A stretch of 64,000 bases of DNA from Spartobacteria bacterium (GTDB lineage: Bacteria; Verrucomicrobiota; Verrucomicrobiia; Chthoniobacterales; UBA10450). Shown here one piece after another: positions 50,448 through 64,000 of this stretch. Where the stretch lies: positions 1-64,000 of the forward strand of contig PNAA01000017.1 in assembly GCA_003169975.1 (NCBI GenBank), read 5' to 3'. The translations under genes were made by a program, and so were the position numbers. The notes beneath the pieces were generated by a model. That model searched no databases. It had not been told where the DNA came from and was given only the letters and a program-made list of their open reading frames with translations. Positions within the stretch are counted from its first letter, which is position 1; every line of letters begins with the position of its first letter.

Positions 50448-50894
50448 ATGATCATCATGCGGCCACGCGCAAGCGGGTCCACCCCGGTCGCCCCGCCCAA
50501 CCAAAATCGCGCCGAGCCAGTGGAAATCTGGAAAGCGCGCAAGTTCATCCACGAACATTTTGATGAAGAAATTTCGCTCATGACAGTGGCGCGCTTTGCG
50601 AACATCAGCCCGAACTATCTCAGCGAAAAATTCAAACGCGTGACCGGTCTCAACTTTGTCGATTACGTCGCGCGCGCACGGTTCGAGAAAGCGTGCGATC
50701 TCCTGCGAGATCGACAGCTGCGGATCAGCGAAATCGCGTTTGCCGTCGGTTTCCAATCGTTGTCGCAGTTCAATCGTGTTTTCAAGAGACTCTCGGGCAA
50801 GTCACCGACGGAATATCGCGCGGCGGAAGCGTCCCACCGAGACTCGCCCAAGCCGGTTAATAAACCGAAGAATATTCTCCGTAAAAATGCGTAG
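50448..50894 (+). CDS. AraC-family transcriptional regulator
   Basis: The 148-aa protein is essentially the AraC DNA-binding domain: first HTH ISLMTVARFANISPNYLSEKFKRVTG and second HTH RISEIAFAVGFQSLSQFNRVFKRLSGKSPTEYR. There is no separate ligand domain. It lies 36 bases before the multihaem cytochrome gene in the same direction, so it is the natural candidate regulator of that cluster. Confidence 0.85.
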   Translation: MIIMRPRASGSTPVAPPNQNRAEPVEIWKARKFIHEHFDEEISLMTVARFANISPNYLSEKFKRVTGLNFVDYVARARFEKACDLLRDRQLRISEIAFAVGFQSLSQFNRVFKRLSGKSPTEYRAAEASHRDSPKPVNKPKNILRKNA

Positions 50895-50930: not shown

Positions 50931-51770
50931 GTGTGCCGTTCAAAGCTGATAAGATGGTTCCGCGAGAAGCGCGAAAGAGTTCTTTGGTGCGCGGGAGGAA
51001 GCGCTGCGCTCACGGTCGTTCTCCTTTCCTGCAGCAGCTTTGAAACAACCCGCTCCATCATGGCGCCGCCGAGTATCCCTGGCGCGGAATTTGTCGGCTC
51101 CGGGGAATGCGCCACCTGTCACGAGGCGATAACACGGGATTTTCCCACGGCCACGCACGCGCGTTTGAAAGCGCCGGGCGACAACGCCAAGAACATGGGT
51201 TGCGAATCGTGTCACGGCCCCGGGAGTCTGCATGTGAAAAGTGGCGGCGCGGCACACACCATCGTCAACCCGCTGCGCTCGCCTGAGACTTGTTTCCAAT
51301 GTCACTTGGAGGTGCGTGCTCAGTTCGACCTTCCTCATCACCACCCAGTCCTGGAAGGGAAAGTGAGTTGCGCCGATTGCCATAATCCGCACAAGGGGGA
51401 CGCCATCAAAGGGGGCGGAGCCAATTTCCCCCAGTCGATCAAGGGCGGCGGCACGGCTTTGCTAAGCCAAAACGACACCTGCTTCCAATGCCACGCGGCG
51501 CAACGCGGGCCGTTCGTTTTTGAGCACGAAGCGCTGCGGGAAGGATGTGTGAGTTGCCATTCGCCCCATGGCTCGGTCAACCAGCGGATGCTGACGCAAC
51601 GCAACCAAACGCTTTGTTTGAAGTGCCATTTCCAGCAGCAGACCGTGGCCGGCAAAATTTATATCGCCGATGTCGATCACTCGAGCTTCCTGCAACAGGG
51701 GACCTGCTGGTCAGCGGGCTGTCACGAGGCGGTCCATGGCTCGCAAGTGACCCCAGTGCTGAGGTACTAG
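50931..51770 (+). CDS. Octahaem MtrA/DmsE-like c-type cytochrome lipoprotein
   Basis: The 279-aa protein starts at GTG, with a lipoprotein signal ending LLSC (about C34). It then carries seven CXXCH sites (CATCH, CESCH, CFQCH, CADCH, CFQCH, CVSCH, CLKCH) and a last CWSAGCH, a CX4CH variant. Order and spacing resemble the MtrA/DmsE/PioA family, normally decahaem, which threads a haem wire through a beta barrel. The barrel gene follows after 2 bases. It presumably spans the outer membrane and exchanges electrons with the periplasm. Confidence 0.85.
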   Translation: MCRSKLIRWFREKRERVLWCAGGSAALTVVLLSCSSFETTRSIMAPPSIPGAEFVGSGECATCHEAITRDFPTATHARLKAPGDNAKNMGCESCHGPGSLHVKSGGAAHTIVNPLRSPETCFQCHLEVRAQFDLPHHHPVLEGKVSCADCHNPHKGDAIKGGGANFPQSIKGGGTALLSQNDTCFQCHAAQRGPFVFEHEALREGCVSCHSPHGSVNQRMLTQRNQTLCLKCHFQQQTVAGKIYIADVDHSSFLQQGTCWSAGCHEAVHGSQVTPVLRY

Positions 51771-51772
51771 TC

Positions 51773-53926
51773 ATGACCACGAATTTATATCTGACATTTC
51801 CGCGTCTAAGGAAGACTCGCCTATTTGCGCCCCTGCTCTGCGTTTTCCTCTTCGCCAGCGCTCCTCTCCGCGCCGGAGAAACTATTCCGCAAACCAACGC
51901 CGACGGCCAGGCGGTGCCTGGCGAGACTGCGCCCGAAGAGCCAGCGCTTGATAATTGGATCGAGCTTGGAGTCGGCGGGACGATCATTAATGGCGACGCG
52001 GCCCAGTTCAAGCAGGAGCACCGGGTGTCGGGCGACGTCTTTGGCGGGATTCAGGATCTGCATTACGAGCAAAACATTAGCAAAGACACATCCTTCTCGA
52101 TCGATGGCCATGCGATTTTCGATAACCACGATTATGATTTGAAGCTGGAGTTGACCAAGCAGGGATTGGGTTACATCCAGGCCGGCTACAGTGAGTTCCG
52201 CAGTTGGTATGACGGCAATGGCGGATTTTTCCCGGTCAATGGCCAATTTTTCAATCCGCCCATACCGGAAATGCATATCGATCGGGGCGAAGCATGGGTC
52301 GAACTCGGCTTGCGTGCTCCGCATTGGCCGGAGATCACGCTGCGTTACTCGCATGAATTTCGCGATGGCCAGAAGGATTCGACCGAATGGGGCGACACTA
52401 CGCTGACGGGCCCGACGCGCAAGATCGCGCCGGCCTACCGCGACATCGATGAAACGCGCGATATCGTCGCGCTCGACGCCGTCCAGACCTTTGGCAATAC
52501 CGATGTCGGGCTGGGCATGCGCTACGAACACGACAGTAACAATGATGCGCTGCAGCTGGAACGTGGCGCCGGTCAACTCCCGCCCGTCGTGCCGCCGCCG
52601 GGCGCCCAACGGTTTATCACGCAACAGGAGACGGACAAGGTCGATCTCTTCAGCGGTCATGCCACGACCGAAACACGGTTCAGCGATTCTTTCTGGTTAA
52701 CGACTGGCTACTCCTATACGACGCTGGGAAGCGACCTGACCGGCACGCGGATTTACGGAACCGACTACAACTCAGCCTACAGCGATCCGATCACGACGCT
52801 CAGCAGCCGCGACCACGGCTATCTGAATCTTGCCGGCTCCGCTCAAGTTGAGCAATACGTGGTGAACCTCAACGCGATGTGGCTGCCGATGAAGAACCTG
52901 ACGGTGCTCGGGGCCTTCCGTTATACGGGCGAGAATAAGCAGAGCGACGCGGTCTACCTCGATACAACCCTGCGCACCATTCCTCCCATCCCAACCGCGA
53001 CCAGCAGTTTCGAGAACTTCAATACCTTCGCGGAGACCTTGGAGTTGCGTTACGCCGGCATTAACAATTGGGTTCTTTATGCCGGGGGCGACTGGGAGGA
53101 ACAGCACGGGGACATCCACGAGAACGAAATTGCCGGTGGGCAGGGTTTGCCGGGCATCAAGAATCTCGATCTCCTTTGGCAAAAGTACAAGGTCGGTTTC
53201 AACTGGTATCCCACGGCCCAGCTCAATTTCGCGGGCGAGTACTATCACAAGATTCTGCGCTACGATAACGAATCGACCGCCGACGGCCCAGAACTCCAGT
53301 TCCAGGAATGGAATACCGATGATGTCAATATTCGCATGACCTGGCGGCCTCGAGTTCCAGTGTGTCTTGGGAGTCTTGCTTTCGTAACCCGCTACGATTT
53401 CACCACCTCGTCGGTGGTCGGTCAGTGGGGACTTCCAGACGAAGTGCCTTTCCTTCCCGAGAGTACGGCCTTGATTACCAATCATGTGTTCACGGAGAGC
53501 TTGACGTGGAGTCCGCTCGCCCGGCTCTATTTCCAGGGAAATTTTTCCTACGTTTTGAATGATACCAAGACTCCCGCCGCCAACATTGAGCTTGTGCCCG
53601 GCGCCGGCCCGTCGGTCCTGAATTTTACGAATGACTATTGGACGGTGGAAGCGGCGGCCGGATTTGTCCTGAACGACAAGACCGACTTCCGGGTCGACTA
53701 TACGTTTTACCGGGCCGACAACTACGTGAACAATGCCCTGGCCAGTCTGCCCTATGGCACGGGAGCGACGGAACATACGGTCTCGGCCACCGCCACGCGG
53801 CAACTGAGCAAGAGAGTCCGGTTACAGTTGAAGTACAGTTACTTTACCTACGAAGACCAACTTTCCGGCTACCACAATAACTACGAGGCGCACTCGCTCT
53901 ATTCCACTCTGCAGGTCCGGTTTTGA
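51773..53926 (+). CDS. MtrB/PioB-like outer-membrane beta-barrel
   Basis: The 717-aa protein has a signal peptide (cleavage near APLRAGE) and many alternating amphipathic strands ending in the aromatic terminus LYSTLQVRF typical of outer-membrane barrels. Family-like features include GGTIINGD near the start, long aromatic strands such as YRDIDETRDIVALDAV and no haem site. With the upstream cytochrome it fits the MtrAB/PioAB porin-cytochrome conduit. The N-terminal CXXC of Shewanella MtrB is absent. No MtrC-like surface cytochrome is adjacent. Confidence 0.8.
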   Translation: MTTNLYLTFPRLRKTRLFAPLLCVFLFASAPLRAGETIPQTNADGQAVPGETAPEEPALDNWIELGVGGTIINGDAAQFKQEHRVSGDVFGGIQDLHYEQNISKDTSFSIDGHAIFDNHDYDLKLELTKQGLGYIQAGYSEFRSWYDGNGGFFPVNGQFFNPPIPEMHIDRGEAWVELGLRAPHWPEITLRYSHEFRDGQKDSTEWGDTTLTGPTRKIAPAYRDIDETRDIVALDAVQTFGNTDVGLGMRYEHDSNNDALQLERGAGQLPPVVPPPGAQRFITQQETDKVDLFSGHATTETRFSDSFWLTTGYSYTTLGSDLTGTRIYGTDYNSAYSDPITTLSSRDHGYLNLAGSAQVEQYVVNLNAMWLPMKNLTVLGAFRYTGENKQSDAVYLDTTLRTIPPIPTATSSFENFNTFAETLELRYAGINNWVLYAGGDWEEQHGDIHENEIAGGQGLPGIKNLDLLWQKYKVGFNWYPTAQLNFAGEYYHKILRYDNESTADGPELQFQEWNTDDVNIRMTWRPRVPVCLGSLAFVTRYDFTTSSVVGQWGLPDEVPFLPESTALITNHVFTESLTWSPLARLYFQGNFSYVLNDTKTPAANIELVPGAGPSVLNFTNDYWTVEAAAGFVLNDKTDFRVDYTFYRADNYVNNALASLPYGTGATEHTVSATATRQLSKRVRLQLKYSYFTYEDQLSGYHNNYEAHSLYSTLQVRF

Positions 53927-54078: not shown

Positions 54079-55254
54079 ATGCTGCGAACGTTTTTCAGTT
54101 GGTTCACGTCGCTCAAGCTGACGATCACCTGCCTGATCGCCGCCATGATCCTGATCTTTGCCGGAACGCTCGCGCAGGTGCATTTCGGGATTCATGAGGT
54201 CCAGCAGCGTTATTTCCAAAGCTGGTTTGTTTGGTGGCCCACGGAGAGCCAGGGCTTCAGGATTCCGATTTTCCCCGGCGGGCATTTGATCGGCGCGGTC
54301 CTGCTCATCAATCTCGTCGCCGCGCATTGGAAACGATTTCGTTGGGCCTGGAGCAGGCTCGGCATTCATCTCACGCACGCCGGTCTGATCATCATGCTTG
54401 CCGGCGGTCTCTTTACCGATCTCTTCGCGGTCGAGAGTCAGATGCGCCTCGTGCAGGGCGAAACGAAAAATTATTCCCAGGATCCGCGTTTCGTGGAGCT
54501 GGCGGTCATCGACACGACCGATCCGGAATTCGACCAGGTCGCCGCCATTCCAGAAGCGGTGCTGCGCCGTCACGAAACGATCAAGCATGGCACGTGGCCA
54601 TTCCAAATTGTGGTAAGACAATTTTTCCAGAATTCGCGCCTGCGGCTGCTCAGCGGATCGAACATCGGCGCCGCGCCGATTGCAAATCAAGGGCCCGGCG
54701 CGCAGGTCGCGGTGGAATCGCTTCCGCGCGCCACCGGGGTGGATGAACGCAACGTCGTCTCCGCCGCGATCGAGATTGTGCCGATCGACCAGGCGACGGG
54801 CGCGGCGGGGCCGTCGCTCGGCACCTGGCTGGTCTCGGATGCGCTCGGCGCGCTCCAGACATTTTCCTGGGCCGGTCACACCTGGCAGCTCGTGATGCGG
54901 CCGGCGCGTTATTACCAGCCGTTCAGCGTCCGGTTGCAAAAATTCACGCACGAGCGTTATCCCGGCACCGAAATCCCGAAGAATTTTTCCAGCCGCATCA
55001 CCTTGCTGGATGCAGAGCGCGCGCTAAGTCGCGATGTACTGATCTACATGAATCATCCGCTGCGCTATCGCGGCGAAACGTTTTACCAGGCCGGATTTCA
55101 GAAGGATGACCAGGCGTCGATTCTGCAAGTGGTGCGTAATCCGAGTTTCATCGCGCCCTATGTCGCGTGCGTGATTGTCGGCCTCGGATTGCTCGTTCAG
55201 TTCGGTTACCATCTCGTAGGATTTGCCCGGCAAAGGAGAGCTGCCCTCGCATGA
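54079..55254 (+). CDS. resB: Cytochrome c biogenesis protein ResB/CcsB
   Basis: The 391-aa protein has three N-terminal helices (LTITCLIAAMILIFAGTLAQVHFG; GHLIGAVLLINLVAAHW; GIHLTHAGLIIMLAGGLF), a large periplasmic domain and a final helix (YVACVIVGLGLLVQFGYHLVGF), the ResB/Ccs1 layout. With CcsA it exports haem and attaches it to apocytochromes (System II). Its stop overlaps the ccsA start (ATGA), so the two are coupled. Confidence 0.85.
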   Translation: MLRTFFSWFTSLKLTITCLIAAMILIFAGTLAQVHFGIHEVQQRYFQSWFVWWPTESQGFRIPIFPGGHLIGAVLLINLVAAHWKRFRWAWSRLGIHLTHAGLIIMLAGGLFTDLFAVESQMRLVQGETKNYSQDPRFVELAVIDTTDPEFDQVAAIPEAVLRRHETIKHGTWPFQIVVRQFFQNSRLRLLSGSNIGAAPIANQGPGAQVAVESLPRATGVDERNVVSAAIEIVPIDQATGAAGPSLGTWLVSDALGALQTFSWAGHTWQLVMRPARYYQPFSVRLQKFTHERYPGTEIPKNFSSRITLLDAERALSRDVLIYMNHPLRYRGETFYQAGFQKDDQASILQVVRNPSFIAPYVACVIVGLGLLVQFGYHLVGFARQRRAALA

Positions 55255-57167
55255 GACGTTTCCTGCCCGCGCTGATTTTCGTTTGCGCGCTTCTCTGGGC
55301 CGCCTCGAGCTGGCGCCCGCCAAGGGCCGCCGCAAATGATTTCGATCTGGTCACGGTCGGAAAGATTCCAGTGCTCGTCGGTGGCCGGATCAAACCGCTC
55401 GACACGGTCGCGCGCAATTCGCTCCTCATTATTCACGGCAAGCAGACTGCCCAAGGAGCGAAGGGAGAACCACTCAGCGCGCGGCGCTGGCTCGCCGACA
55501 CGCTCTTCAACGCGCCGGTCGCCGATCAGGATCCGGTCTTCGTCATTCAGAACGCCGACGTGCTCGGACTCTTCGGTTGGGAGCAGAGCGACCGGAAGTA
55601 TTTCTGCTTTGCCGAGCTGATGCCCTTCCTCAGGCAGATCGACGAACAGGGCGCGCTCTCCGAGAAGCTGCAATCGGTGGAACGGACCGCCTATCAGAAC
55701 GCGGTTCTCAACCTGCGCAATGCGATGGTGCTGGACCAACGCCTGAAGAATAGCGTGCAGCCGGAAGATGCCCGGAGCTTTACGCGCGAGCTGGAAGCCT
55801 TTGAGGGCGGTTTGCCGGCGGCCGGAAAAGCAGCGCGACAACGCGAGACGGGAAAGAGTTTCGACCAGACCAAGCTCAATGATACCGCCGGATTGATCGC
55901 GCTCTACCAGAAATTGTCGGAGATGGCTTACATCCTCGCCGTGCCGCCTGGCTCCGCGCAAAACAGCGAATGGCACTCGGTTGGCGACAGTCTGCTCGGG
56001 TCGATCCCGACGGACGAAATTCACCCGGTGGTAAGAATGTATGCCCGGATGGGAGACGCCTATCGCGCCGGCGATCATGTCGCATTTAATCAGCACGTCG
56101 ACCTTCTTTCGAACTGGATGGCGCAACATCAACCGACTGCGGTCAAGCGCGCCTCCTTCGAGTTTCTTTTCAACCAGGTCGATCCCTTCACGCACAGCAT
56201 GGTTCTTTATGTCCTGGCGTTCCTGCTCGCCTGCGGCTCGTGGCTGGCGTGGAGCCGCACGCTCAATCGTTCCGCCTTCTATCTCTTGCTCCTCGCCCTC
56301 GCGATCCACACCTTTGGCCTCGTCTCGCGGATGTACCTCCAGGAACGGCCGCCCGTCACCAACCTCTACTCGTCCGCCATTTTCATCGGCTGGGGCGCGG
56401 TCATCGTGGCGCTCATCCTGGAGCGGATTTTTCGGGACGGCATTGGCGCCGCCTGCGCGGGCGCGATCGGTTTCATTACGCTGATCATCGCACACCATCT
56501 CGCGGGCAGCGGAGATACGCTGGAGATGCTACAAGCCGTCCTCGACACCAACATCTGGCTCGCCACGCACGTGGTCGCGATCACCACCGGTTATTCGGCG
56601 ATGTTCTTGGCCGGCATGCTCGCCATCATCTATGTCATCCGCGGCGTGTTCACCCGGTCATTGAACAAAAAAACCGCCGATTCACTCACTCGGATGACGT
56701 ACGGCGTCGTCTGTTTCGCCACCTTCTTCAGCTTTGTCGGCACCGTGCTGGGCGGCATTTGGGCCGATCAATCATGGGGCCGTTTCTGGGGATGGGATCC
56801 GAAGGAAAACGGCGCCGTCCTGATTGTGCTCTGGTGCGCGGTCATTCTGCACGCGCGCTGGGGCGGGTACATTCGGCAACGCGGTCTCATGATCATGGTC
56901 ATCTTTGGCAACGTCATCACCAGCTTCTCGTGGTTCGGGGTGAACATGCTGGGCGTCGGGCTGCATTCCTACGGGTTCATGCAAAAGGCATTCCCGTGGC
57001 TCTGTGGTTTCATCCTAAGCCAGCTCGCCCTCATGGCCGTCGCCGCAGTTCCACTGGAGCGTTGGCGAAGTTTTCAAACAACCGCGGAATCGTCCCGCCT
57101 GCGAGCTGGACGGCCAGCGATGAAATTTACACCTCCCAGATTAGCGGTAGAAACCATTCCAGATTGA
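55251..57167 (+). CDS. ccsA: Cytochrome c assembly protein CcsA
   Basis: The 638-aa protein has a signal-like helix, a ~300-residue periplasmic region, then about eight helices of the CcmC/CcsA haem-handling domain with GRFWGWDPKENGAVLIVLW (the tryptophan-rich haem motif) and conserved histidines (LAIHTFGLVSRMYLQERPP, THVVAITTGYS). Partner of ResB. Placing it inside the cluster means the cytochromes come with their own maturation machinery. Confidence 0.87.
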   Translation: MRRFLPALIFVCALLWAASSWRPPRAAANDFDLVTVGKIPVLVGGRIKPLDTVARNSLLIIHGKQTAQGAKGEPLSARRWLADTLFNAPVADQDPVFVIQNADVLGLFGWEQSDRKYFCFAELMPFLRQIDEQGALSEKLQSVERTAYQNAVLNLRNAMVLDQRLKNSVQPEDARSFTRELEAFEGGLPAAGKAARQRETGKSFDQTKLNDTAGLIALYQKLSEMAYILAVPPGSAQNSEWHSVGDSLLGSIPTDEIHPVVRMYARMGDAYRAGDHVAFNQHVDLLSNWMAQHQPTAVKRASFEFLFNQVDPFTHSMVLYVLAFLLACGSWLAWSRTLNRSAFYLLLLALAIHTFGLVSRMYLQERPPVTNLYSSAIFIGWGAVIVALILERIFRDGIGAACAGAIGFITLIIAHHLAGSGDTLEMLQAVLDTNIWLATHVVAITTGYSAMFLAGMLAIIYVIRGVFTRSLNKKTADSLTRMTYGVVCFATFFSFVGTVLGGIWADQSWGRFWGWDPKENGAVLIVLWCAVILHARWGGYIRQRGLMIMVIFGNVITSFSWFGVNMLGVGLHSYGFMQKAFPWLCGFILSQLALMAVAAVPLERWRSFQTTAESSRLRAGRPAMKFTPPRLAVETIPD

Positions 57168-57199: not shown

Positions 57200-57529
57200 A
57201 TGAAAAAAATCGTCACCATCGCTATCAGCTTGTTCGCCGCCTCGGCAATTTCTGCCCGCGCGGCTGATGCCAATCAGAATTGGGACAGTCACTGCGCGCA
57301 ATGTCATGGGAAAACCGGGCACGCCGACACAAAAATGGGAATGAAGCTCCAGGCCAAGGATTTCAACGATCCGAAAGTCCAGGCCTCTTTCACCGATGCC
57401 GAGGCCGCCACCGCGATCAAAGATGGAATCAAAGAGGGCGGTAAAACAAAAATGACCGCTTTCGGCAGCAAGTTGAGTGACGACGAAATCAAGGCGCTCG
57501 TCGCCTACGTGCGCACCTTGAAGAAATAG
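57200..57529 (+). CDS. Monohaem class I cytochrome c
   Basis: The 109-aa protein has a signal peptide (cleavage after ISARA), the haem site CAQCH and a likely axial methionine in KTKMTAF, ending EIKALVAYVRTLKK. It is a soluble periplasmic electron shuttle. It is a close paralogue of the next gene, pointing to tandem duplication. Confidence 0.88.
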   Translation: MKKIVTIAISLFAASAISARAADANQNWDSHCAQCHGKTGHADTKMGMKLQAKDFNDPKVQASFTDAEAATAIKDGIKEGGKTKMTAFGSKLSDDEIKALVAYVRTLKK

Positions 57530-57767: not shown

Positions 57768-58103
57768 ATGAAAATGAAAACGAAAGCAGCATTGTTAGTC
57801 GCACCCATCGCCCTCTGTGCGGGCGCCGCTTTGGCAGCGGACGCCCCAGCCAACTGGAGCCAGCACTGCGCCTCGTGCCACGGCAAGGATGGCAGCGGGA
57901 GTACGACAATGGGCAAAAAGTTAGGCGTAAAGGACTACCGGGATGCCAAAGTGCAGGCGGAGTTTGATGACGCCAAAGCCGCACAGGTGATCAAGGACGG
58001 CGTGGCCGAGGGGGGCAAGACCAAGATGAAGCCTTTCAAAGACAAGCTTTCTGACGAAGAAATCAAGGCTCTGGTCGCATACGTTCGGTCATTAAAGAAA
58101 TAG
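57768..58103 (+). CDS. Monohaem class I cytochrome c, paralogue
   Basis: The 111-aa protein has a signal peptide (cleavage after GAALA), CASCH and KTKMKPF, and the same C-terminal EIKALVAYVRSLKK. Roughly 60% of mature residues match the preceding cytochrome by eye. The 238-base gap between the pair holds no gene I can see. Confidence 0.88.
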   Translation: MKMKTKAALLVAPIALCAGAALAADAPANWSQHCASCHGKDGSGSTTMGKKLGVKDYRDAKVQAEFDDAKAAQVIKDGVAEGGKTKMKPFKDKLSDEEIKALVAYVRSLKK

Positions 58104-58279: not shown

Positions 58280-59764
58280 ATGAACGATAACCCGGCGAAA
58301 CCACGCTCCTTTAAGCGCTTCTTTCGCAACTGGCTTAGCTGGGCCGGAATGGTGCTTGGCACCAGCGCGCTATTCGCCTTCCTTCTTCTTGTCGCGATTG
58401 ATCAGTTCGCTGGTCATCGCAATCCGTACGTCGGCATTCTCGCCTACGTCGTGGCGCCCGGGTTTCTCATTCTCGGCGTCGCCCTTACCGCAATCGGCGT
58501 GTTGCTTCAACGGCGGGCGGAGCACCGGGCGGTGCGTGGCGCGGCCCCCTTCGTGCTCAAGATCGATTTGTCGCGACTCCGTGACCGCAGGATTCTTGCT
58601 ATTTTCGCCGCGGGCAGTGTCATCTTCCTGTTTCTAACTGCTCTGGGCAGCTACCAGACCTACCAATACACCGAGTCGGTGAGTTTCTGCGGCCAGACCT
58701 GTCATCTGCCGATGGAACCGGAGTTTGTCGCTTCGCACCATACGGCGCATGCCGAGGTGGAATGCGTCGCATGCCACGTCGGCCCCGGCGCGGCCGCATA
58801 TTTCAAAACCAAGATCAACGGCGTCAAACAGCTCTATCACACGGTGACAAACGACTTCGAGCGCCCGATCCGCGTCACCGCAGCGAATCCGCGTCCGGCG
58901 CAGGCAATTTGCGAGCAATGCCATTGGCCAAACAAATATGCCGGCAACGTCGAACGTACCTATCGCCATTTCCTTTCAGACGAGAAGAACACGCCCTTCA
59001 CTGTGCGCCTCTTGCTCAACGTCGGAGGTGGAGACCCGTCGAATGGCCCCGAGGGCGGCATTCATTGGCACATGAATATTGCCAACAAGATTGAATACAT
59101 CGCGGCGGATGACCGACTCCTCTCGATTCCGTGGGTCCGAATGACCAGCCCTAACGGCGTGGTCACCGAGTACCGAACCCCGGACTTCAAAGGGGATCCC
59201 TCTCAATACCATATCCGCCGGATGGACTGCATGGATTGTCATAGCCATCCGGCGCACAAGGTCCACGCGCCTAACGATGCGGTCGATCTGGCGTTGTCTA
59301 CCGGGCGGATCGATTCCAGTATCCCCTGGGTTAAGTCGAAAGTCGTAGCGGCACTGGTCAAGCCATACGCAACCAAAGCGGAAGCTCTGCAGAAGATCGC
59401 CGCCTCCTTACACGAAGCTTATCACGACGCCGCCCGGGCTGACCCGATTATTGAGGAAGCGCAGTCGATCTATCGCGATAATTTTTTCCCGGAAGTGAAA
59501 CTTGATTGGCGCACGCACCCGGATTTTGTCGGCCACAAGAATTGGGATGGCTGCTTCCGCTGCCACGACGGCAAGCACAACGCGCCCGACGGCAAGATGT
59601 CGATCAAGGCCAGCGATTGCAGGTCATGTCATCTCATTCTCGCGCAGGGCAGTGGCGAAGCACTCAACCAAGTGAATCCAAAAGGCCACGATTTCATGCA
59701 CATCGATGCGGAGTATGCCGACTTCTCCTGCACCGAGTGTCACACCGGCGGGCTGCAGAAATGA
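58280..59764 (+). CDS. NapC/NirT-type heptahaem membrane cytochrome
   Basis: The 494-aa protein has three N-terminal helices (~20-40, ~52-78, ~112-130) and a periplasmic multihaem domain. Haem sites are CGQTCH (CX3CH, with the following LPMEPE as in NapC/NrfH proteins), CVACH, CEQCH, CMDCH, CFRCH, CRSCH and CTECH. This is the form of quinol dehydrogenase that takes electrons from the membrane pool, comparable in role to CymA. It could feed, or be fed by, the MtrAB-like conduit. Confidence 0.85.
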   Translation: MNDNPAKPRSFKRFFRNWLSWAGMVLGTSALFAFLLLVAIDQFAGHRNPYVGILAYVVAPGFLILGVALTAIGVLLQRRAEHRAVRGAAPFVLKIDLSRLRDRRILAIFAAGSVIFLFLTALGSYQTYQYTESVSFCGQTCHLPMEPEFVASHHTAHAEVECVACHVGPGAAAYFKTKINGVKQLYHTVTNDFERPIRVTAANPRPAQAICEQCHWPNKYAGNVERTYRHFLSDEKNTPFTVRLLLNVGGGDPSNGPEGGIHWHMNIANKIEYIAADDRLLSIPWVRMTSPNGVVTEYRTPDFKGDPSQYHIRRMDCMDCHSHPAHKVHAPNDAVDLALSTGRIDSSIPWVKSKVVAALVKPYATKAEALQKIAASLHEAYHDAARADPIIEEAQSIYRDNFFPEVKLDWRTHPDFVGHKNWDGCFRCHDGKHNAPDGKMSIKASDCRSCHLILAQGSGEALNQVNPKGHDFMHIDAEYADFSCTECHTGGLQK

Positions 59765-59841: not shown

Positions 59842-60219
59842 ATGGAATCAGGCAAACAATCTTTTTACTCGATGAGAGCCACGAATCGCCTCAGTTTGTC
59901 GAAACCGGGGCTGTTGGTATGGGCGGGTCTGGCGGTCGCTGTGGCAGGTGCTTGCACCATGTTTTCCGAGGTTGTTTATGCGGGTGGAGACAGTAAGTCG
60001 TCGAAGACGACGACTTCTTCGAGCGGCGAGCAACAAAAACTTACAGGGCAAGAGTTATACGCGATCAACTGCAACCGGTGCCACTCTGAACGCTATCCGA
60101 CGGAGTGGACACCGGCCCATTGGAGGACGGTCATGCTCCATATGCGCGTACGAGCCAACCTTCCCGCCGAGCAAGCGAAAGAGATATTAAAGTATCTCGA
60201 ACAAGATGCCGGGAACTGA
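59842..60219 (+). CDS. Membrane-anchored monohaem cytochrome c
   Basis: The 125-aa protein has a hydrophobic N-terminal segment (LLVWAGLAVAVAGACTMF), a Ser/Thr-rich linker and the haem site CNRCH, followed by WTPAHWRTVMLHMRVRANL with possible axial methionines. It is probably a periplasm-facing cytochrome. An alternative start is ATG 59872. The following porin begins 19 bases after its stop. Confidence 0.75.
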   Translation: MESGKQSFYSMRATNRLSLSKPGLLVWAGLAVAVAGACTMFSEVVYAGGDSKSSKTTTSSSGEQQKLTGQELYAINCNRCHSERYPTEWTPAHWRTVMLHMRVRANLPAEQAKEILKYLEQDAGN

Positions 60220-60238
60220 CAACCTGGGAATAATACTT

Positions 60239-61588
60239 GTGAAAATCCGTGCTGAGATTCTTGGGGTCCTGGCAGCCGGATGTCTGATGGGAATCGCCCT
60301 GCCGCCACGCGCCGCGGCGGAGGTAAGCGACGAGGACTTCAATAACTTGAAGGCGATGGTTGAGCAGTTAAGTCAGAAAGTAGACGGATTGGAAAAGACG
60401 CACGAGGAAGACCAGGGGAAAATCCGGCAGCTCCAATCCCAGCTCGGCGAAACGGAGAAGACGGCCGCCGACGCGCAAAAGAAAGCCGAGACGGCTGCTC
60501 AGGCACCGCCTCCGGTGGCGGAAGGCCCCCCCGCCGCCCTCGCCACGCACGACTTCATGATGGTGGGAGACGCCGAGGTTCAATACGGCAAGACTCACGG
60601 ACAACACGGAGGGTTCGGGCTGGCTGATTTTGCTCCGATCTTCCTGTATCGGGCAAGCGACAATATCTTGTTCGAAGTTGGTGTTGATATCACGTTGCAG
60701 AACAATGCGCCCGACGGCGCTGGCGCCACCACCACGTTTGATTTGAGTTTCGCGCAATTGGACTATCTCTATAACGACTACGTATCGGTGGTAGCCGGAT
60801 TGATGGTGCTCCCTTTGGGCACCTATTCTGAGCGCGCGGCAGGTTGGCTGAACAAGATCCCGACCGACCCCCTGGCGCGTGATTTCCTGCCCGGTGCCGG
60901 TGTCGGCGTCCAATTGCGTGGGGCCATCCCGGTGGGACAGTCCGGTGCGAGTTTCACCTACTCTGCTTATGGAGTGAATGGACCCGGATCAGTGGACGGT
61001 TCAGGCAACGCCGACCAGCTCGATCTCGGCGGGAACGTGGGCGTCAAATCCGACGGCAACAATGGGAATTTGCACGGCAATCCCAGCGGCGGCGGCCGGC
61101 TCGGTGTTTTCGTTCCGTTCAAACCTCATTACGATGTCGAGCTTGGGATTTCGGGCCAGACGGGCGAATGGGATAACGCCGGCAACCGGTCGTGGTCGGG
61201 GCTGGTGGTGGACGGGGCGGTACACATCAGTCCTTACTTCGAAGTGAAGGGTGAGTATATCAATACCTGGGTAGAAACCGATGACATGGGCACCATTCAT
61301 CCGCAGGGGGGCTGGGTTCAGGCCGGCTATAAGCTGGGCGGATTGAATCTGGATGTCCCCATCCCGCTCATTAATCTTAGCAGCCTTGAGCTTGTCGGAC
61401 GCTATGATACGGCGAACGATGGCCTGCTCCAGCATCAAGGGACGAATACGGACCGCGAAACGGCCGGCTTCGTCTATTACCTCACCAATACGCTTTGGTT
61501 TGAAGGCGACTACGAATGGCTGCAAAGCCATGGCCCAAACAGACTGCCATCCCACGATTTTGTTTTCCAAATCTCTTACGGATTCTAA
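60239..61588 (+). CDS. Outer-membrane porin with coiled-coil N terminus
   Basis: The 449-aa protein starts at GTG with a signal peptide ending RAAAEV, then a short coiled coil (LKAMVEQLSQKVDGLEKTHEED) and an Ala/Pro linker. A beta barrel with Asn/Gly-rich loops follows, ending in aromatic ISYGF. The layout resembles coiled-coil-anchored porins. It contains no haem site. It may bring substrate to the cytochrome system. Confidence 0.75.
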   Translation: MKIRAEILGVLAAGCLMGIALPPRAAAEVSDEDFNNLKAMVEQLSQKVDGLEKTHEEDQGKIRQLQSQLGETEKTAADAQKKAETAAQAPPPVAEGPPAALATHDFMMVGDAEVQYGKTHGQHGGFGLADFAPIFLYRASDNILFEVGVDITLQNNAPDGAGATTTFDLSFAQLDYLYNDYVSVVAGLMVLPLGTYSERAAGWLNKIPTDPLARDFLPGAGVGVQLRGAIPVGQSGASFTYSAYGVNGPGSVDGSGNADQLDLGGNVGVKSDGNNGNLHGNPSGGGRLGVFVPFKPHYDVELGISGQTGEWDNAGNRSWSGLVVDGAVHISPYFEVKGEYINTWVETDDMGTIHPQGGWVQAGYKLGGLNLDVPIPLINLSSLELVGRYDTANDGLLQHQGTNTDRETAGFVYYLTNTLWFEGDYEWLQSHGPNRLPSHDFVFQISYGF

Positions 61589-61611
61589 ACAAACCAGCAA
61601 AGGAATCGATT

Positions 61612-62082
61612 ATGTTAACGAAGGTAAAAGTTCCCATGTTACTCCTCGGTGCGGCCGCGCTCGCCCTCATCTGGGGGAGTTTAGCGCGCGCTGCGGATCA
61701 GCTTGACGCTGAGACCAAGGCACGAGTGGAACGCTTTGAAAAAGGCGCAGCGACGATCAACGTCTCCAAGTATCCGTCGGGGATCCAGGCTAACTACGAA
61801 GTGTTTTCGCAGAAATGCTCGCAATGCCACAAGCTGAGTCGTCCGATCAACTCCGACTACGCGCTGCCCGATGAGTGGTCGCGCTACATCAAACGCATGA
61901 TGAACAAACCCGGTTCGGGCATCAGCAGGGGCGACGGCAAGAAGATTTACGACTTCCTCGTGTATGACGCCAGCGTCCGCAAGAAGACGATGGTGGACGC
62001 GAAGCTCGCGAAGGCAGCCCCTGCCGAGAAGACCGAGGCAGAAGCAAAGATCAAAGAGGTCCACAGCACATACGATAAGTAG
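61612..62082 (+). CDS. Monohaem cytochrome c
   Basis: The 156-aa protein has a signal peptide (MLTKVKVPMLLLGAAALALIWG, cleavage near ARAAD), the site CSQCH and RYIKRMMNKPGSGIS with candidate axial methionines. A Lys/Glu/Ala-rich tail follows. It is distinct from the paired cytochromes at 57200 and 57768. The next gene starts 32 bases later. Confidence 0.8.
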   Translation: MLTKVKVPMLLLGAAALALIWGSLARAADQLDAETKARVERFEKGAATINVSKYPSGIQANYEVFSQKCSQCHKLSRPINSDYALPDEWSRYIKRMMNKPGSGISRGDGKKIYDFLVYDASVRKKTMVDAKLAKAAPAEKTEAEAKIKEVHSTYDK

Positions 62083-62114: not shown

Positions 62115-64000
62115 ATGTCTTCGACGTATTCAGTTGAGCTGCCGGACTTGAATTATTTCACCCGGCAGGTTCTCTGCCGCGAGGGCTGCCCGGTGCGCAC
62201 GGATTCCGGCGGCTATGTCCAAGCGATTGCAGAAGGTCGTTATGAAGATGCCTACATCATCGCGCGAACACCAAACCCTTTTGCCTCCATCTGCGGCCGC
62301 GTGTGCGCGGCGCCGTGCGAGGCCAAATGCCGGCGCGGAGCACTCGACGCCTCGATTTCCATCCGTGCGCTGAAACGGTTCGTCTGTGAAAAATTCGGCG
62401 TTGAGTCGGAAAGGTTTGACCTCGGCAGGGTCTATCCTGAACTGCGCGATCCGCGGCGCGAGCGCATCGGCGGCGGTCGCAAAGTCGCGGTGATCGGGGC
62501 CGGGCCGGCCGGCCTGTCGTGCGCGCATGAACTGGCGCTGATGGGTTTCGAGCCGACGGTGTTCGAGGCGCAGAACCTGGCGGGCGGAATGTTGGTGCTC
62601 GGCGTGCCCGAATACCGACTGCCGCGTGAAATCATCCAGGCGGAAATCGAAGCGATCAAATCGCTCGGCGTAGAGATCCGCTTGAACACCCGGCTCGGTC
62701 GCGACTTCGCGTTTTCGGACCTCAAGCAACAGGGTTATGAAGCGATCTTTCTCGGCATTGGTGCGCACAAAAGCCGCGAGCTGGCCATCGAAGGTGTGGA
62801 AATGGATGGCGTCCTGCGGGCGATTGATTTTCTTCTCAACGTCAATCTTGGCTACCGTGTGACGCTCGGACGCAAAGTCGTCGTCATCGGTGGCGGTAAC
62901 GTGGCATTTGACGTGGCGCGTTCGGTCCTGCGGCAGACGGAAAAACTGGCGGACATGAGCGAAGCGGAGTTGCGCGCGGCGTTGCACACCGCTGCCGCGA
63001 CACTGGAGGAACTGACTATCCGGGAACCCGAAGCGCCTGATCAAGTTCGGCTCGCCTTGGACGTGGCGCGCGAAGCCATCCGCAAGGGTGTGCCGGAAGT
63101 CCACATGTATTGCCTGGAGAACCTCGACGAAATTCCGGCGGCGCGCGAGGAAATCGAGGAAGCGGAGAAAGAAGGGATTCGGCTACACACGCGGTTTGGC
63201 CCCAAACGCATTCTCGGCGACGACGGCAAGGTTTCCGGCATCGAATTGATTAAGTGCAGCCGGGTATTCGACGAGAACCGGCGCTTCAATCCGCAATTCA
63301 TCGAAGGCAGCGAGGAAACGGTTGATTGCGATACGGTCGTTCTCGCCGTCGGACAAGCGGCGGATCTTTCCTGGATTCATCCCGAGGACACCCTGAAGCT
63401 GACGCCGCGCGGCACGCTGCAAACCGATCCTACAACGATGGCGACGTCGCGGCCCGATGTGTTCGCGGGCGGCGATGTGGCTTTCGGACCGCGCATTATT
63501 ATTACGGCCGTCGCCGAGGGCAAAAGAGCGGCGAACTCCATTGCGAAGTTCCTCACGGGCCGCGTTCCGGCCGAGCCGCACCAGGCGCGTATAACCATCT
63601 ACGACACACAGCAGTATCGGATGAAGCCCGATTACGAGAAGCTGGTGCGCCGATCCCCGCCGACTCTGCCGTTGGACCGGCGTATCGGAATTGCCGAAGT
63701 GGAGAAGGATTACCCCGAGACCGAGGCGGTAGTACAGGCAATTCGCTGCCTCAAATGCCACGTCAGTCCCGTGTTTAACGGGGACGAGTGCGTCCTTTGC
63801 GGCGGCTGCGCGGATGTCTGCCCTGAGTATTGTTTTCGTCTGGTGGATGTCGCCGACCTGCGTGGCGCTGAAGATTTGCAAGCGGCGGTGCTCGCGCGCT
63901 ATGGACGCATCCCCGAGCGCGGGGAGCAGGCTGCGATTATCAAGGACGAAACTCGTTGTATCCGCTGCGGCCTGTGCGCTGCACGCTGCCCTACCGGCGC
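62115..64000 (+). CDS. GltD-like FAD/Fe-S oxidoreductase, partial
   Basis: At least 628 codons run off the right edge. The N terminus carries GltD-type cysteines (CREGCPV; CGRVCAAPCEAKC), then an FAD Rossmann loop GAGPAGLSCA (~residue 128), the NAD(P)-site GGGNVAFDVAR and FAGGDVAFGP. The C-terminal ferredoxin part has CVLCGGCADVCPEYC and CIRCGLCAARCPTG, two 4Fe-4S clusters. It is related to the glutamate synthase small subunit but lacks the large-subunit gene here. It probably links NAD(P)H to the adjacent electron-transfer chain. The 3' end is not seen. Confidence 0.8.
   Translation, partial: MSSTYSVELPDLNYFTRQVLCREGCPVRTDSGGYVQAIAEGRYEDAYIIARTPNPFASICGRVCAAPCEAKCRRGALDASISIRALKRFVCEKFGVESERFDLGRVYPELRDPRRERIGGGRKVAVIGAGPAGLSCAHELALMGFEPTVFEAQNLAGGMLVLGVPEYRLPREIIQAEIEAIKSLGVEIRLNTRLGRDFAFSDLKQQGYEAIFLGIGAHKSRELAIEGVEMDGVLRAIDFLLNVNLGYRVTLGRKVVVIGGGNVAFDVARSVLRQTEKLADMSEAELRAALHTAAATLEELTIREPEAPDQVRLALDVAREAIRKGVPEVHMYCLENLDEIPAAREEIEEAEKEGIRLHTRFGPKRILGDDGKVSGIELIKCSRVFDENRRFNPQFIEGSEETVDCDTVVLAVGQAADLSWIHPEDTLKLTPRGTLQTDPTTMATSRPDVFAGGDVAFGPRIIITAVAEGKRAANSIAKFLTGRVPAEPHQARITIYDTQQYRMKPDYEKLVRRSPPTLPLDRRIGIAEVEKDYPETEAVVQAIRCLKCHVSPVFNGDECVLCGGCADVCPEYCFRLVDVADLRGAEDLQAAVLARYGRIPERGEQAAIIKDETRCIRCGLCAARCPTG

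Follow-up and report, generated by a model that had tools for sequence, protein, structure and literature searches.

Does a pair of adjacent genes in this DNA of a Spartobacteria bacterium encode an electron conduit across the outer membrane, and in which direction would such a conduit carry its electrons? The window, by which we mean the whole analysed stretch of 64,000 nucleotides, contains the two genes on the same strand:

50931..51770, + strand: octahaem c-type cytochrome lipoprotein related to MtrA, DmsE and GSU2203, without MtrA haems 3-4 (profile and PDB sequence matches)
51773..53926, + strand: 26-strand outer-membrane beta-barrel, remote MtrB homologue and putative sheath (profile-profile and fold comparison)

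An earlier note on this DNA had described an octahaem lipoprotein two bases before a 717-residue barrel, and the ORF coordinates, haem sites and lipobox show this description to be correct to the base. The cytochrome ORF of 279 amino acids begins with a GTG, which is in register with the start of the relative at L003, and its TAG stop ends at 51770, leaving a spacing of 2 bp to the ATG of the barrel ORF at 51773 (717 amino acids, ending at 53926). A longer frame of 793 amino acids (51545-53926) overlaps the cytochrome gene and was discarded, as it arises from calling ORFs at their first start; for the barrel the ATG at 51773 is the more sensible choice.

The family relations of the cytochrome are seen from its profile matches. 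The GSU2203-type family (NF041028) gives the best family score with 173.7 bits (5.5e-51, below the curated cut-off of 325 bits), and the DmsE/MtrA decahaem family TIGR03508 gives 163.8 bits (5.1e-48, below the curated cut-off of 192.2 bits). A PDB sequence search led to 6r2q_A at 3e-26, a chain which is named otherwise in the result table but which we take to be MtrA, 6R2Q being the Mtr complex. Outside the haem motifs, too, the homology to MtrA and DmsE extends over N- and C-terminal parts, and the alignment with MtrA-type proteins takes in the C-terminal GPF-EHE, CHxPHGS-N and HGS motifs. Compared with the ten haem sites of the MtrA/DmsE decahaem proteins, the cytochrome possesses eight, namely seven CXXCH and a C-terminal CX4CH (CWSAGCH), which align to MtrA sites 1, 2, 5, 6, 7, 8, 9 and 10. 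We compared this arrangement with 56 verrucomicrobial rows showing 37-80% identity and the same motif set, whose counts are not independent as some rows are near-identical or perhaps represent one organism in two collections. The equivalents of MtrA sites 3-4 are missing in all 56 of them, but are present in 41 of the 43 other rows. The CX4CH motif is the last site in 54/56 verrucomicrobial rows and was found outside them in the Omnitrophota row only. A lipobox (LLS-C34) follows a charged n-region and a hydrophobic stretch, and its cysteine is kept in 56/56 rows. Exactly eight histidines outside the haem motifs are conserved, seven of them in every verrucomicrobial row and H250 in 55/56, a number that would fit one distal histidine for each haem and thus makes bis-His ligation a candidate. 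The AlphaFold model of the cytochrome, built with 11 sequences, was too poor for use (pLDDT 40.7), and a linear haem stack threading the barrel would be expected by analogy with MtrA.

For the barrel the fold prediction was more informative. The AlphaFold model, built with 29 relatives, reached a pLDDT of 83.5 and a pTM of 0.78 and shows 26 predicted strands, with short strands 1-4 (10-14 residues) and a helix (residues 76-83) between strands 1 and 2. Likewise, the strands in the crystal structure of MtrB number 26, the first four of them are short, and a capping helix lies between strands 1 and 2 (PMC7198977). Comparison of the model with the PDB placed MtrB first by a wide margin in Foldseek (6r2q_B, 3.1e-15; runner-up 6.4e-11) as well as in VIA-align (Z 24.1, rmsd 3.6, 567 residues; runner-up 16.7), and the outcome that the earlier note had named as refuting, a barrel matching unrelated porins only, did not come about. 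In hhalign the verrucomicrobial barrel profile matched MtrB-type barrels at E 6.9e-22 over 636 columns and GSU2204-type barrels at E 1.3e-28 over 586 columns, both near full length, the comparison sets being barrels beside decahaem cytochromes that include proteins scoring as MtrB_PioB or GSU2204. Reversed-profile controls of those barrels scored at most 47 compared with 191-243 for the real profiles, and the verrucomicrobial profile against its own reverse gave 88, a background from repeat-like barrel patterns that lies well below the real scores. No match was found between the barrel and NCBIfam (including TIGR03509), PF11854 or PDB sequences, and a PF11854 search of the whole genome found nothing; the kinship with MtrB was reached by profile-profile and fold comparison only. 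Seven barrel relatives (L056, L059, L065, L068, L069, L071 and L072) carry an N-terminal PSCyt1 haem domain (up to 8.4e-17), by which the sheath itself would carry a haem on the periplasmic side. That this domain corresponds to the separate monohaem cytochromes of the cluster was not supported by BLAST, as the best hit (E 4e-4) was to a different cytochrome.

Among the 388 genomes of the phylum that were searched the barrel occurs in 22 (16/199 genera), and in 21 of these the 7+1-haem cytochrome lies directly upstream, the 22nd match being a short fragment. With this adjacency and the motif set shared by the 56 verrucomicrobial relatives, the octahaem gene pair is no product of chance. In the named genomes a scan with the cytochrome alignment found verrucomicrobial relatives in Opitutae, Limisphaerales, Akkermansiaceae-labelled MAGs and others. 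Beyond the phylum it found one Omnitrophota MAG, as well as decahaem relatives in Proteobacteria, Desulfobacterota, Acidobacteria, Nitrospirota and Elusimicrobia, and a frame of 600-1000 amino acids follows the cytochrome in nearly every intact locus, other phyla included. A scan of viral contigs found nothing. In a quick maximum-likelihood tree, which has several long branches and moderate support, the verrucomicrobial rows fall into a single group that includes the Omnitrophota row, and decahaem proteins of Acidobacteria are adjacent to it. The Omnitrophota locus (L082:2296-15775) resembles the window in carrying the pair together with ResB, CcsA, a nine-haem-type cytochrome, Rieske, cytochrome b and a NapC-like gene, and it may reflect a transfer or a misbinned contig. 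Two further loci were noted in passing: L060:5734-12162 holds two barrel-size frames of which the second is the better match to the window barrel, and L038:5402-10587 holds an MtrC-MtrA-MtrB set on a 2.1 Mb Photobacterium plasmid that is unannotated in the gene table used.

The question of the direction leads to the genes around the pair, all of which are encoded on the same strand:

50448..50894, + strand: AraC-type DNA-binding protein, candidate regulator directly upstream (HTH by inspection)
54079..55254, + strand: ResB, cytochrome c biogenesis system II (Pfam PF05140, 8e-23)
55251..57167, + strand: CcsA/CcsB haem handling, cytochrome c biogenesis system II (PF01578, 5.2e-25; TIGR03144, 9.8e-37; start at ATG 55251 inferred)
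57200..57529, + strand: periplasmic monohaem cytochrome c (PF13442, 6.2e-13)
57768..58103, + strand: periplasmic monohaem cytochrome c, paralogue of 57200..57529 (PF13442, 2.8e-13)
58280..59764, + strand: inner-membrane NapC/NrfH-like multihaem cytochrome, candidate quinol dehydrogenase (PF03264, 3.2e-9; NrfH, 7.6e-12)
59842..60219, + strand: small monohaem c-type cytochrome (PF13442, 6.2e-4, under the cut-off)
60206..61588, + strand: second outer-membrane-like protein with an N-terminal coiled coil (no Pfam match)
61516..62082, + strand: monohaem c-type cytochrome (weak cytochrome matches only; the ORF start overlaps the preceding gene and the real start is probably later)
62115..64000, + strand: GltD-like FAD/Fe-S NAD(P) oxidoreductase, continuing to C13:64037 (NF009410, 1.5e-130, below the cut-off)

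In L025, L026 and L039, too, the pair is directly preceded by a homologue of the AraC-type protein (65-68% identity). The NapC/NrfH-like cytochrome contains six CXXCH and one CX3CH, and nothing was found to relate the second outer-membrane-like protein to MtrB (E 0.09 with the barrel profile in hhalign). With the GltD-like gene begins a bc-complex cluster that runs past the window (C13 to ~71.2 kb) and includes two Rieske/cytochrome b sets with one six-haem and one nine-haem cytochrome; this cluster (window 62115-64000 and L023:115-9178) directly follows the conduit genes. In the 49 loci examined, many of them on short contigs, homologues of the monohaem cytochromes were found near the pair in 27, NapC-like genes in 17 and ResB in 9. 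We found no surface decahaem MtrC in the window cluster and no gene for a surface-type multihaem cytochrome between the barrel and the window end, the next multihaem gene being the inner-membrane NapC-like one. The single PF22113 match in the genome (L129:4372-5853) lies on another contig (C15) and is a protein of 493 amino acids with ten haems and an N-terminal membrane segment. Near the pair in relatives we observed 13-haem proteins (L029:8099-10453, L030:5049-7283 and L032:7364-9604), and a scan of the L029 and L030 proteins led us to reject these two as MtrC-like, as they carry a cytochrome b561 domain and appear to be of the CbcL-like inner-membrane type.

Taking all this together, we consider it likely that the pair is a shortened trans-outer-membrane conduit of the MtrAB kind, which would pass electrons from the quinol pool to an extracellular acceptor without a dedicated MtrC. 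It could be argued instead that the barrel belongs with the ordinary large porins or TonB-type proteins, that the cytochrome is a free periplasmic carrier and that their adjacency is incidental, as the only Pfam match of the barrel is a weak one to Porin_4 (9e-4) and other large barrels fit the fold too (Z 14-17). MtrB stands far above these barrels in both fold searches, however, the profile matches to MtrB- and GSU2204-type barrels are near full length, and the adjacency is kept across the phylum and in the Omnitrophota MAG, with a barrel-size frame beside the cytochrome in nearly all intact loci of other phyla, so that we regard this reading as most improbable. The score of the cytochrome against the DmsE model and the presence of molybdopterin oxidoreductases elsewhere in the genome could also suggest a DmsEF-like module, in which the conduit would serve a dedicated extracellular reductase such as a molybdoenzyme and not minerals or humics. 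But the PF00384 matches are located on other contigs (C26, C27 and C36), and among the window genes that surround the pair we saw none for a molybdoenzyme, making such a role very unlikely.

More serious is the possibility that the same conduit works inward, with extracellular Fe(II) or reduced humics as its electron source as in PioAB and MtoAB, and delivers the electrons to oxidases, or through the bc complex and the GltD-like oxidoreductase to NAD(P). This would agree with the cluster having no MtrC-like gene, with the FAD/Fe-S NAD(P) oxidoreductase and the two Rieske/cytochrome b sets directly downstream, and with four haem-copper oxidase matches in the genome. Import and export would use the same wire. 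The absence of MtrC does not set the direction, though; NapC/NrfH-like partners are typical of quinol oxidation, a search of the genome found no RuBisCO, and relatives have been reported from anoxic, humic waters (PMC5615132). We therefore judge the inward reading to be rather unlikely. As RuBisCO was not found and the cluster contains a NapC/NrfH-like cytochrome and bc complexes, the outward direction is the more likely one; resting on neighbour genes, it is the weakest step in our argument. From the proposal of an MtrAB/PioAB-like conduit in the earlier note the MtrAB-type core has thus held up in sequence, profile and fold, but the hint at iron oxidation of the PioAB type, for which the missing MtrC is the only ground, has not, given the missing RuBisCO and the quinol-linked neighbours.

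For the preferred outward conduit we propose the following model. The 26-strand barrel would span the outer membrane as an insulating sheath and would hold the eight-haem lipoprotein inside, the C-terminal haem lying at the outer face and the lipid-anchored N-terminus at the periplasmic face. Solved MtrA has an outward-facing C-terminus and a protruding N-terminus, and its haem 1 lies about 20 Å into the periplasm (PMC7198977). Relative to decahaem MtrA the wire would be shortened by one internal two-haem module (haems 3-4) from the periplasm-facing half, and by analogy this loss in the N-terminal half together with the lipidation would move the entry haem towards the membrane face. The NapC-like cytochrome, the adjacent bc complexes or both would probably take up electrons of the quinol pool, and the small monohaem cytochromes would relay them to haem 1. 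The last haem would then hand them to an extracellular acceptor, possibly humic substances or Fe(III), with no dedicated MtrC in between. One could go further and imagine that in the verrucomicrobial lineage an MtrA-like ancestor lost a dihaem module and was lipidated at its periplasmic end, that MtrC was dropped, and that the window genome coupled the conduit to the bc complex and the GltD-like NAD(P) oxidoreductase, which would let the conduit work in the inward direction too and yield NAD(P)H from extracellular electrons; as a whole we hold this scenario to be quite unlikely. If the conduit works, it would bear on anaerobic carbon turnover, as Verrucomicrobiota are an abundant group in soils and humic lakes, and the lack of one two-haem module makes the pair a natural test case for the minimum length of an outer-membrane wire.

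How does the pair compare with known systems? With Shewanella MtrAB (6R2Q) it shares adjacent genes, the 26-strand barrel with short strands 1-4 and a helix after strand 1, and a cytochrome that aligns at both ends and has candidate bis-His sites; with PioAB and MtoAB it shares the AB arrangement without C. In contrast to MtrAB, MtoAB and PioAB it has eight haem sites instead of ten, an N-terminal lipidation, CX4CH as last site and a barrel below the detection of PF11854 and TIGR03509. Pairs of the GSU2203-GSU2204 type from Geobacter, Nitrospirota and Desulfobacterota provide the best family score for the cytochrome and a near full-length profile match for the barrel, and several of their cytochromes also carry a lipobox, but these have nine CXXCH and an odd first site (decahaem) compared with eight sites here, and the window protein scores below the family cut-off. 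OmaB-OmbB of Geobacter sulfurreducens, an octahaem cytochrome with a porin (PMC6344600), can be likened to the window pair by description only.

The closest counterpart is found within the phylum itself. He et al. (2017, PMC5615132) described clusters from bog Verrucomicrobia in which a porin with 20 or more transmembrane segments accompanies a cytochrome that has eight haem sites. They noted homologues in Opitutus terrae and Ca. Udaeobacter, and proposed that the electrons are transferred to humics. The conduit is thus not the first for Verrucomicrobia, such gene pairs having been predicted there, and Verrucomicrobia go unmentioned in the survey of Baker et al. (2022, PMC8805035), who found MtrCAB in three phyla. 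Matched by description, the window pair agrees with the 2017 clusters in phylum, in the many-strand porin adjoining an eight-haem cytochrome and in further cytochromes nearby, and it has close relatives in Opitutae and other verrucomicrobial MAGs. He et al. called their cytochrome periplasmic, stated that homologues of the Mtr or Geobacter type were absent and regarded the system as non-homologous to Mtr (PMC5615132), whereas lipidation and a distant MtrAB homology are indicated here. The locus is therefore a further member of the family predicted in 2017, and new are the remote MtrAB homology, the loss of the two-haem module, the lipidated N-terminus and the last site of the CX4CH type. Our structural and profile data support that prediction and revise its statement of non-homology, as judged from sequence comparison and a predicted fold the MtrAB family seems to include the verrucomicrobial conduits as a distant branch.
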